Assembly (NCBI GenBank): GCA_016783825.1
Contig: JADHVV010000005.1
Location: forward strand, 1-56,834
Reading direction: 5' to 3'
Length of the DNA: 56,834 bases
Origin: Candidatus Zhuqueibacterota bacterium
GTDB lineage: Bacteria; Zhuqueibacterota; Zhuqueibacteria; Thermofontimicrobiales; Thermofontimicrobiaceae
The translations under genes were made by a program, and so were the position numbers. The number at the start of each line of letters is the position of its first letter. The first letter of the stretch is position 1. The notes under the pieces were generated by a model, which saw only the letters and a program-made list of their open reading frames with translations, searched no databases and was not told the DNA's origin. Shown in pieces: positions 5,496 through 54,358 of this stretch.

Positions 5496-5663
5496 CCTGA
5501 ATTATTCTTTCGCCACAAAGACACAAAGGCACAAAGTTTTAAAAAACAATGAATAAGAATATTATTCATAAATTATTAAAATAAAAATGAGTTTAAAATT
5601 TAATTAGCTTCTATCTTATTGTTTCTTCGTGTCTTGGTGGCAAGAATTCATGAATAATTCAGG
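5496..5663. repeat. Small inverted-repeat element with 12-bp perfect ends and 'cacaaagacacaaag' core
   Basis: Ends cctgaattattc (5496-5507) and gaataattcagg (5652-5663) are perfect inverted repeats. Inside lie gccacaaagacacaaagg and cttcgtgtcttggtggc, complementary word repeats of a family seen again at 15873, 26600-26975, 32918 and 45607. Its right end overlaps the dinB stop codon (5659-5661), so the element supplies the end of that gene. Confidence 0.75.
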
Positions 5664-15837: not shown

Positions 15838-15985
15838 CCAACCTGGACAAGCCAGAACCGACTGAAAAAGAATCTCACGCAAAGTCGCGAAGCCGCAAAG
15901 AAATCGCAAAGTTTTTTTAGATTTTCTTTGCGTAATCTTTGCGTTTCTGCGGCTTTGCGTGAATTTTTTTTTTTGCCCATTGTGC
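15838..15985. repeat. Modular repeat element, copy 4: same frame, different core (cgcaaagtcgcgaagccgcaaag)
   Basis: The left frame cctggacaagccagaacc is identical to copy 1 at 12811 and the right frame tttgcccattgt is also identical. The core, however, is a hairpin of cgcaaag-type words (cacgcaaagtcgcg / gcggctttgcgtg). This is direct evidence that frame and core are separable modules. Confidence 0.8.
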
Positions 15986-44363: not shown

Positions 44364-44437
44364 CTAAACCTCGAATTACACTAATTTCACTGATTATTTC
44401 TTTTTAATTCGTGCAATTCGTGTAAATTAGTGGTTTA
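44364..44437. repeat. Inverted repeat of the attcgtgtaaattagtg family
   Basis: The left arm aaacctcgaattacactaattt pairs with aattcgtgtaaattagtggttt. It is related to the outer arms at 1861-1991. Confidence 0.75.
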
Positions 44438-44475
44438 TCAGTGAACTTATTATTTAATGGAGGATTGTTTAAGAA

Positions 44476-45598: not shown

Positions 45599-45817
45599 AT
45601 CCAAATAATGCAATAGCCACGAAGACACGAAGGTTTTAATACCCGAAGGGTGCACAAAGAATTAAATTATAATTAGTTATGAATACATATTTAGCAAACT
45701 TTTTTCATTTTTTTATACATCAACTTTACAACAGAACTTATGTTTTTCCTTTGTGTTTCTTGGTGGCTTTGTGTCTTTGTGGCAACTCTTTTTTTCTACT
45801 GCATTATCTGGGTTTAA
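45599..45817. repeat. cacgaagacacgaag inverted-repeat element with ataatgcaatag ends
   Basis: The ends ccaaataatgcaatag and ctactgcattatctggg frame gccacgaagacacgaagg on the left and cctttgtgtttcttggtggctttgtgtctttgtggc on the right. It belongs to the same family as 5496-5663 and as the repeat that encodes the end of the truncated ferredoxin at 26898. The gap 45476-45963 contains this and the terminator only. Confidence 0.75.
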
Positions 45818-48315: not shown

Positions 48316-48424
48316 TTGATGGGAGATTTTTGGGAGTATTTTAATTGTGATGGTTACCTTGAAAAACAAATCCAATCCGCCGCGGCGGAAAACAACCCAA
48401 CGGATAAAAAATTAAAGATGTGAA

Positions 48425-49069
48425 ATGGAATTATTACATAAAGATTTGTCGCATGATTTGATCGGGTGTTTCTTTCATGTGCATAATACATTAGGAGTGG
48501 GATTTGATGAAAAAACTTACCATAATGCTTTGGAGTACCACTTGGGAAAATGTGGGATAAATCATTTTTCAAGGGAGAGAAAAGCACTTTATCATCGCGG
48601 CTATCAGGTGAGGTCGTTTGAAACAGATTTTGTAATTTCAGGAAAGATAATTTTAGAATTAAAAGCTATTCAATCCCGCTTTATTCAAGCAAATTATGTA
48701 CAAATTCTTTCGGAGTTGAAATTATGGAAAATGCAATTGGGATTGCTTGTTAATTTTGGTTTACAAAAAGTTATTATTGAAAGAATACCCTTTTCAGAAA
48801 AACCAAAAACGATTTATGAAAACTATGATCATATCAAAGATAATATTGATGAGAATGATAGAAAAATATTGGCAGCGGTTCGTGACAGTATTCTTTATGT
48901 TTTCGAGGTTCATGGTTTGGGTTATGGCGGCGCTCTCTATCGTAAATTGATCGAAACAGAACTTGAATTTAAGAAACTAAATTATCAGAAAAAAATTCCT
49001 ATCTCAGTGAAATACGAGGGTGAAGTAATATCAGAATTCAAAATGAAACCAATGGCAGTAGAGAATTGA
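48425..49069 (+). CDS. GxxExxY-family protein, tandem domains, ending at an in-frame TGA
   Basis: A 214-residue protein. Residues about 1-118 are a complete GxxExxY domain: FFHVHNTLGVGFDEKTYHNALEYHL, VRSFETDFVISGKIILELKAI and LLVNFGLQKVIIERI, with the PD-(D/E)xK-like Asp, Glu and Lys. A second copy begins at about 155 (VFEVHGLGYGGALYRKLIETEL) and is cut by TGA at 49067. The family's role is unknown; members are often found in repeats and near rRNA genes. It lies inside a perfect 18-bp inverted repeat. The second domain has lost the ETD/ELK residues, so only the first could be a nuclease. Confidence 0.8.
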   Translation: MELLHKDLSHDLIGCFFHVHNTLGVGFDEKTYHNALEYHLGKCGINHFSRERKALYHRGYQVRSFETDFVISGKIILELKAIQSRFIQANYVQILSELKLWKMQLGLLVNFGLQKVIIERIPFSEKPKTIYENYDHIKDNIDENDRKILAAVRDSILYVFEVHGLGYGGALYRKLIETELEFKKLNYQKKIPISVKYEGEVISEFKMKPMAVEN

Positions 49070-49219
49070 ATTATCTGTGCCATAAATGCACTCGGGGATA
49101 AAATTGATTTTTATGACATTGCAAAAATCAAATCTTACTTAAGAGTGTTAGGCTTACAAATTGGTATTATCGTTAATTTTGGAAAAAGCAAATTAGAAAT
49201 AAGAGCTATTTCTATCTAA
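49070..49219 (+). pseudogene. In-frame continuation of the second GxxExxY domain
   Basis: Directly after the TGA at 49067-49069 the same frame continues without interruption: IICAINALGDKIDFYDIAKIKSYLRVLGLQIGIIVNFGKSKLEIRAISI and a TAA. It supplies the missing C-terminal half of the second GxxExxY domain (compare LGLLVNFG in the first). TGG mutated to TGA, or stop-codon readthrough, would explain it. It is not in the ORF track. Confidence 0.75.
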
Positions 49220-49337
49220 TATTCAAAAAAAATCTTTTATCCGTTGGGTTGTTTCTATCCGTTGGTTTTGCCTATAACTTCCAATATTTTAATCAATTAA
49301 ATATCACAGAACAAAAACAGTTAACCCGGAGACCACA

Positions 49338-49763: not shown

Positions 49764-49893
49764 ATTAATGACTCTGTTGATTTAGTCAATTTTTTGGATT
49801 TGAACTACACTATATAGTTGCACACAAGATTATGCAATATAATATATTGACAATTTGAATGTTATAAGGCATAAAATCAACAGAGTCATTAAT
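49764..49893. repeat. 130-bp element with perfect 20-bp inverted ends
   Basis: attaatgactctgttgattt (49764-49783) and its exact reverse complement (49874-49893) enclose 90 bp of AT-rich DNA without a gene. Unlike most others its arms are not iterated words. It lies about 45 bp upstream of the polyprenyl synthase start and so probably overlaps that promoter. Confidence 0.85.
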
Positions 49894-53122: not shown

Positions 53123-54205
53123 ATGAGAGATGATTCATCAACAAAACCACCTCAAAAAATTCTGCTAATTCGTTTAAGTTCAATTGGTGACATATTATTA
53201 ACAACGCCTGTTATCAGGGTTTTGAAATTAACTTTTCCCAACTGTACAATTGATTTTGTGGTCAAAAATCAATTTGCTGAATTATTAGAAAATCATCCAT
53301 CGCTGAACCGGTTGTACAAATTAGAGAAAGGAAACAATAACCAAACATTAAAAAAAATTAAGCGCCAAATAAAAAATAATAATTACGATCTTATTGTTGA
53401 TCTTCACAAGAATTTTCGCAGCTATTGTTTGACTTTTCGAGTCGGGGCAAAAAAGATTGTACGATACACAAAATTTGTATTCCGCCGATTTTTATTCGTC
53501 AAACTAAAGATCAATTTATTCAAACAAATTATTCCCATTTTTGAGCGTTATTTTTTGGCCCTTGTTCCGTTTAACATCCAATACGATGATTCAGGATTGG
53601 AAATATATTTTAATAAACAAACCGAAAAAAAAATAAAAACAACTTATGAACATTTTATAAATAATCAGGATGATATTTTTATCGGCATTGCCCCGGGCGC
53701 CAGTTTCGCAACCAAACGGTGGACTATTGAGGGCTTCCAAAATGTGATCACTTATTTTATTGAGCAGCAAAATGTTAAAATCATCCTTTTTGGTAATAAG
53801 CTTGACAGGGAACTTATTGAATCATTACACATAACAAAAAATCAAAATATATTAAATAGCGCAGGAAATCTTTCCATTTCAGAAACAGGTGTATTGATGG
53901 ATCGATGCCACGTTGTTCTGACAAATGACAGTGGTCTATTGCATTTGGCATCGGCGCTAAAAAAACCGGTTGTCGCCATCTTTGGAAGTACAACTGAAGA
54001 ACTTGGATTTTTTCCATCAACTACGAAAAATATTGTAATACAAAATAGTAATTTAAAATGCCGTCCCTGTTCACATGTTGGCAGGAACAAATGTCTAAAA
54101 GATCATTTTAAATGTATGAAAGATATCACTTCAAATGAAGTAATAAAAGCGGTTGAAAAATTGGTAACCGTTCATAAAGTGAGTAATACAAATTCCAACG
54201 GATGA
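53123..54205 (+). CDS. Glycosyltransferase family 9 (heptosyltransferase-like)
   Basis: A 360-residue GT-B enzyme of family 9. The N-terminal domain begins KILLIRLSSIGDILLTTPVIRVLK, the family signature. The C-terminal donor-binding domain has IGIAPGASFATKRWTIEGFQNVI and VLTNDSGLLHLASALKKPVVAIFGSTTEELGFFP, the ADP-heptose-type site, followed by a Cys-rich segment (CRPCSHVGRNKC). It adds a heptose to lipopolysaccharide core. It is coupled to the UDP-glucuronate decarboxylase gene. The last codons (NGA stop: AAC GGA TGA) come from the caacggat repeat that follows, so the natural end may have been different. Confidence 0.93.
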   Translation: MRDDSSTKPPQKILLIRLSSIGDILLTTPVIRVLKLTFPNCTIDFVVKNQFAELLENHPSLNRLYKLEKGNNNQTLKKIKRQIKNNNYDLIVDLHKNFRSYCLTFRVGAKKIVRYTKFVFRRFLFVKLKINLFKQIIPIFERYFLALVPFNIQYDDSGLEIYFNKQTEKKIKTTYEHFINNQDDIFIGIAPGASFATKRWTIEGFQNVITYFIEQQNVKIILFGNKLDRELIESLHITKNQNILNSAGNLSISETGVLMDRCHVVLTNDSGLLHLASALKKPVVAIFGSTTEELGFFPSTTKNIVIQNSNLKCRPCSHVGRNKCLKDHFKCMKDITSNEVIKAVEKLVTVHKVSNTNSNG

Positions 54206-54358
54206 GCGGCCAACGGATACGAATTTAAATTTCTGATGAACTTAAATTGTTTTTTTACTGAATGTCTGATGATGTTTTCGTTTAATCAATTTTTTTTAAG
54301 AGGCATTCTAATAAAAAAAATTACAATAGCCAAAATCCGTTGGCTGCTCATCCGTTGG
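54195..54358. repeat. Inverted repeat of the caacggat family containing the GT9 stop
   Basis: ccaacggatgagcggccaac (54195-54214) and its near-exact complement at 54339-54358 (23 of 24 positions over the longer arms) enclose about 115 bp with no gene. The GT9 stop TGA (54203-54205) lies in the left arm. It is the non-coding counterpart of the GxxExxY-bearing element at 48392-49252. The rest of the gap to 54498 holds no gene. Confidence 0.85.

Follow-up and report, generated by a model that had tools for sequence, protein, structure and literature searches.

A GxxExxY gene between word-array arms: probable gene-bearing copy of a two-component nuclease–hairpin element

The window analysed here, the whole 56,834-nucleotide stretch of Candidatus Zhuqueibacterota DNA, carries a GxxExxY gene between inverted arms made of short words, and this feature is probably one gene-bearing copy of a two-component element that pairs a PD-(D/E)XK nuclease with its own word hairpins, spread in trans. 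GxxExxY genes are associated with such arms, the words covary with the protein, copies are bounded by their arms, and elements are present in one genome and absent from a close relative. We infer that the GxxExxY protein binds, cleaves and mobilises the hairpins. Taken together, this appears to be a nuclease not described so far, with scattered target hairpins of its own; in the open-access literature outside bioRxiv, GxxExxY receives passing mentions alone and the repeats are not described.

The two arms of the window element pair 48390-48413 with 49231-49254, 24 nt at 96% identity including 20 nt that match perfectly (AAACAACCCAACGGATAAAA). An inverted repeat around the gene, put at 18 bp in an earlier note on this DNA, is thus borne out and slightly longer than claimed. 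The right (3') arm, at 49231-49265, extends outward by one more word, and its minus strand reads CCAACGGAT AGAAACAAC CCAACGGAT, with the inner A word at 49239-49247, the B word at 49248-49256 and the outer A word at 49257-49265; it matches the A-B-A site pattern exactly (C171:49239-49264). The left (5') arm, at 48379-48413 on the plus strand, was judged against the intact right arm and against further copies from this genome. Its outer word slot is degenerate (GCCGCGGCG, 48379-48387) and is followed by the B word GAAAACAAC (48388-48396) and the inner A word CCAACGGAT (48397-48405). The element sits between protein-coding genes and not within a 23S rRNA gene.

The enclosed open reading frame is a GxxExxY gene by profile, scoring 115 bits with both Pfam PF13366 and TIGR04256 (cut-offs 22 and 35). 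It runs from 48425 to 49069 on the plus strand and encodes 214 aa of GxxExxY/PDDEXK_3 protein, in which the first domain is complete and a second has begun when an in-frame TGA is reached at 49067-49069. A profile search of the genome found two GxxExxY domains in one frame, at 48440-48784 and 48866-49204 (plus strand), the second scoring 58 bits with one stop, this TGA, inside it. Inspection of the aligned translation shows that key catalytic residues of the second domain are gone, namely the E of GxxExxY, the D, and the K of ExK. An unbroken two-domain homologue, found in another family of the class, shares 59% identity over 258 aa spanning both domains and has Arg at the TGA position, so the window copy is a two-domain gene that a nonsense change has broken. 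This Arg and the otherwise decayed second domain speak against recoding of the TGA; a sequencing error may be the source of the stop. The window protein is probably no longer complete, and its first domain could still be made. The enclosed gene of the earlier note therefore stands, corrected to a two-domain form whose reading frame is not intact.

An arm score was defined as the best inverted match between the 200 bp upstream and the 200 bp downstream of each GxxExxY domain. At the 95 loci of the class the median score was 19, with 66% at 16 or more; 208 control ORFs from those loci had a median of 10, with 2.4% at 16 or more (p=3e-33), and swapped flanks gave a median of 10, with 7.1% at 16 or more. 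About a fifth of the class genes score below 14, that is, have no clear arms by this score. At 77 loci from public genomes of many phyla and archaea (among them Planctomycetes, Acidobacteria, Chloroflexi, Cyanobacteria, Bacteroidetes, Proteobacteria, Verrucomicrobia and Methanothrix/Methanosarcinales archaea) the median was 20 versus 11, and a later held-out set of 45 loci had a median of 18. The earlier note had linked GxxExxY genes with hairpins, naming an absence of flanking inverted repeats from related genomes as the mark of coincidence. The repeats are present there, and the link is strongly supported and broader than suspected, reaching from the class to its phylum and to many other bacterial and archaeal lineages. 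As such hairpins are common in these genomes, chance neighbourhood had to be considered, with the arms as coincidental intergenic repeats or ordinary terminators beside an unrelated gene. The control ORFs rule this out together with the words, which vary with the protein and can be predicted from it, so that its probability is negligible.

A typical arm consists of three words of about 7 nt, C-R-C-N-R-A-(G/T/A), spaced 8-11 nt apart and mostly pointing inward, and the letters vary within one arm. Of 48 unambiguous elements, 96% have one and the same spacing pattern in their two arms, and different elements agree in it in proportion to the similarity of their proteins. In arm autocorrelation the peak lies at 9 nt where the gene has one domain and at 17-18 nt where it has two. 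Base counts reveal no GTAG or GTGG foot; the bases outside the first word are T/A-rich, then A-C. At variable word positions, identity is 0.831 between hairpin-paired words, 0.825 between crossed words and 0.816 between words of the same arm, against 0.48 between elements. This near equality means that it is the word that is conserved and not the base pairing, and conserved pairing was accordingly rejected as the cause of arm similarity. The same figures weigh against a system at the RNA level, in which the hairpins would be transcribed and the protein would bind or process RNA, as in the S23-bearing intervening sequences of 23S rRNA. The flexible spacing of 8-11 nt would suit such a system, S23/IVP genes follow the same plan with 7-nt words, and in Coxiella the intervening sequence forms an RNA hairpin that RNase III cuts (PMC4990558). 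The nearest folds to GxxExxY are mostly DNA nucleases, however, and with pairing not conserved an RNA-level system appears improbable.

Empty copies are abundant. The source genome contains 117 T-type and 178 G-type triple-word arrays and none for the reversed-pattern control; per genome, empty versions number from tens to hundreds, with the reversed-pattern control near 0. Many arrays are inverted pairs with loops from 6 nt to more than 100 nt. T arrays have a median of 3 in genomes without a PF13366 gene versus 26 in the others (p=0.0025), and the rank correlation over all genomes is 0.46. Arrays also occur in some genomes without a detected GxxExxY gene (G046, with 84 of the G type, G045 and G050).

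The window element belongs to a subtype in which two-domain genes go with A-B-A arms whose A words lie 17-18 nt apart. The full A-B-A arm pattern has 78 matches in the source genome versus none for the reversed pattern, and the arm pattern of the window element is therefore not due to chance. Window-type homologues, defined as two-domain proteins with at least 160 bits over the full length, occur once in each of eight genomes and have an A-B-A arm or a remnant of one, for example CCAACGGAT-TGAAACAAC-CCAGCGGAT in G058 and CCAACGGAT-AGATTAAG-ACCAACGGAT in G055-G057. The window A-B-A site is present in 11 of 63 class genomes, including all eight with the window-type protein (Fisher p=4e-8). The other three genomes have window-type sites and no detected window-type protein; all three are 78-85% complete. 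These A-B-A copies, together with the triple-word arrays, strongly support the proposal that one repeat family has both empty and gene-bearing forms.

The hairpin first taken for the empty form in the window, at 54195-54358, is real and has the CAACGGAT word of the window element. Its arm reads CCAACGGAT-GAGCGG-CCAACGGAT, with two words 15 nt apart and the spacer GAGCGGC, and because of this distance and the different spacer it belongs to a sister subfamily and is not the window element's empty form. True empty counterparts, which have the GAAACAAC spacer, are found at other places of the genome (contig C48:2664-2835 is one). An empty hairpin of the one-domain type is found at 15878-15959, with CGCAAAG CGCGAAG CGCAAAG and inverted CGCAAAG CGCAGAA CGCAAAG. 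Further triple-word arrays of the one-domain type were noticed in the window at 5514-5536, 44416-44443 and 45759-45781 (CACAAAG, CACTGAT/CACGAAT and CACAAAG/CACCAAG). Just downstream of the next gene, at 49764-49893, the 20-bp arms of another inverted repeat (ATTAATGACTCTGTTGATTT) match perfectly around a 90-nt loop; as it has no CRCNRA words, this is a different palindromic element. Outside the window, nesting was seen at L351 (G000:C160:10800-12200). The loop of this window-type empty hairpin contains a further insert, whose ends are GTAACCAATCACAGGG/CCCTGTGATCGGTTAC; it lies between the copies of a possible 8-bp direct repeat TCTTTTTA and has words like CCCACAGAAA inside. At L154 (G061:C371), a one-domain GxxExxY element abuts one half of a CAACGGAT-GAAACAAC-CAACGGAT hairpin and has the look of an insertion into it.

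From element to element the words vary, and they do so in step with the protein. For a tree built on 153 domains, the observed numbers of letter changes versus shuffled ones were 4 versus 28 for letter 7, 13 versus 31 for letter 4, 22 versus 43 for letter 5 and 24 versus 39 for letter 2. Mutual information connects residues 3 and 4 with base 4 and residues 7 and 8 with base 5, all at the N-terminus. The signal is kept with words of the downstream arm alone, which excludes overlap of the words with the N-terminal codons as its cause. A rule for base 5 was fixed on the first set: T at residue 7, or E, G, Q or D at residue 8, gives G; otherwise the base is A. It was right in all 23 held-out elements, where the base rate is 52%. 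Over all data the rule is right in 92% of cases versus 83% for the nearest neighbour by the rest of the protein, and of the cases in which they give different answers, 23 go to the rule and 8 to the neighbour. Base 5 is clearly separable from phylogeny, with few well-supported independent contrasts, and the associations of base 4 and base 7 are not separable from descent in the comparison of rule with nearest neighbour.

The structure of GxxExxY, predicted with confidence (pLDDT 94.5), places the code residues in a helix at positions 2-21, and the invariant residues include G, E, Y, D, K and Q. Foldseek returned Cas4 SSO0001, LHK-Exo, Hjc resolvase and lambda exonuclease among the nearest solved structures, with a best E of 3e-3, which is weak. 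The model has the PD-(D/E)XK fold, and nuclease activity is putative. Likeness to Cas4, Hjc and lambda exonuclease lies in the predicted fold and in the E...D...ExK...Q pattern, whereas PF13366 forms a family of its own and the structural scores are no more than modest. No PD-(D/E)XK nuclease of this kind is known to have word hairpins of its own. That the protein acts on the hairpins, as the earlier note supposed, is thus favoured by a DNA-nuclease fold and by word–protein covariation, with the activity itself predicted.

Evidence for movement is indirect. Two window-type empty hairpins (L016 and L031) align at 86% over positions 120-293, where the hairpin itself occupies 121-292, and have unrelated flanks, so that these copies are bounded by their terminal inverted repeats; some other pairs share flank too. 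G055 and G056, which are 96-98% identical, differ by a one-domain element, a two-domain element and an empty hairpin, each of which one genome has and the other lacks. No clean empty/filled junction was found between these two genomes, as the intergenic flanks at the presence/absence sites differ too. G055 also has CGCGAAT-type hairpins within a larger repeat of about 150 bp with its own outer inverted ends, about CCATTTAAATAACTTACTCATTT (L268-L295). Among 63 elements there was no target-site duplication, direct repeats of at least 5 bp occurring in 6% versus 5% for shuffled sequences. The idea that the gene moves with the hairpins therefore keeps the arm-bounded copies and presence/absence differences on its side, and has neither a clean junction nor a target-site duplication.

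The absence of duplications weighs against a cut-and-paste transposon with terminal inverted repeats, in which GxxExxY would be the transposase and the empty hairpins its MITEs. A gene between inverted arms accompanied by many gene-less copies with those arms is what such a transposon would produce, and MITEs with their parent insertion sequences are indeed bounded by the same inverted ends. Yet PDDEXK_3 alone was matched, with no known transposase domain, and the arms are built as word arrays, with short words that can differ in letters inside one arm. A transposon of this kind is very unlikely.

Less easily set aside, though still unlikely, is a protein that reads the words without moving them, a host-serving or self-regulating nuclease or binder (cutting cruciforms, for example), while another enzyme or replication slippage copies the hairpins. 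The lack of target-site duplications suits it. GxxExxY genes hardly occur in phage, plasmid and viral collections, which led us to reject carriage by phages or plasmids and indicates that GxxExxY behaves as a chromosomal gene; further, most paralogues within a genome are less than 55% identical, so the gene itself rarely duplicates. A non-moving reader would be at ease with both, and RAYT genes are likewise described as mainly vertical (PMC6006769). Against it are the gene-bearing copies present or absent between genomes 96-98% identical, and the co-occurrence of the window-type protein with its sites.

In the two-component element that we prefer, each hairpin arm would offer three slots of a short word read by the nuclease. 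Most copies in a genome would be empty hairpins with a short non-coding loop, a few holding the nuclease gene in the loop. The protein would most likely bind the words through its N-terminal helix (residues 3, 4, 7 and 8), one domain per slot. One-domain proteins go with like words about 9 nt apart and two-domain fusions with A-B-A arms having 17-18 nt between the A words. The bound protein would then cut or process the folded hairpin or the paired ends, and the hairpins would spread in trans, as is thought for REPINs with RAYTs.

REPIN/RAYT (TnpA-REP) systems comprise many small intergenic inverted-repeat hairpins, each type with its own repeat-flanked protein gene; there are several types per genome, and the protein is mostly chromosomal (PMC6006769, PMC3733652). 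The GxxExxY system likewise has many dispersed hairpins and a cognate gene flanked by the same repeats. It differs in its enzyme, which is PD-(D/E)XK (the sole match being PDDEXK_3) where RAYT is HUH/Y1, in hairpins without a GTAG/GTGG foot, and in arms of three short tandem words where a REPIN is one palindrome. The best reading is that it works like REPIN/RAYT and lies outside that class by enzyme and foot. If true, a very common protein family, named by its motif alone, would gain a function, and the abundant intergenic repeats of the CACGGAT, CGCAAAG or CACGAAT type would gain an agent. The REPIN/RAYT way of life would then have a second solution, with an unrelated enzyme, in archaea as in bacteria. 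The readable relation between residue and base makes specificity directly testable.

A parallel comes from the unrelated S23/23S-IVP genes (PF05635), which also have inverted arms (28 loci, median score 17.5 versus 9 for swapped flanks) with a word period of 7. Like the window element, 23S rRNA intervening sequences with S23p have a terminal inverted repeat, with a small gene in its loop, and tandem short words. Unlike the PDDEXK_3 product of the window element, S23p is a four-helix bundle; the period is 7 versus 9 or 17-18 for GxxExxY; and the described cases lie inside rRNA, whereas the window element is intergenic. It is conceivable, and we offer it tentatively, that word-coded hairpin elements form an unrecognised class, with GxxExxY and S23/IVP as two founders not related to each other. 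In this class a small protein would read a tandem short word by a simple residue-to-base code, domain number would set the register of the array, and the protein would spread its own hairpins across bacteria and archaea. The S23 parallel points to the 23S rRNA intervening sequences, long a puzzle, as one particular form of a broader class. Tandem heptamers (GACAGAT) have been reported in the Coxiella intervening sequence (PMC4990558), from which the general word pattern has apparently not been drawn. At L066-L095, S23 four-helix-bundle genes were seen between arms of tandem 7-nt words such as GGTTGCT, GCCAAAA and TATAGGG.
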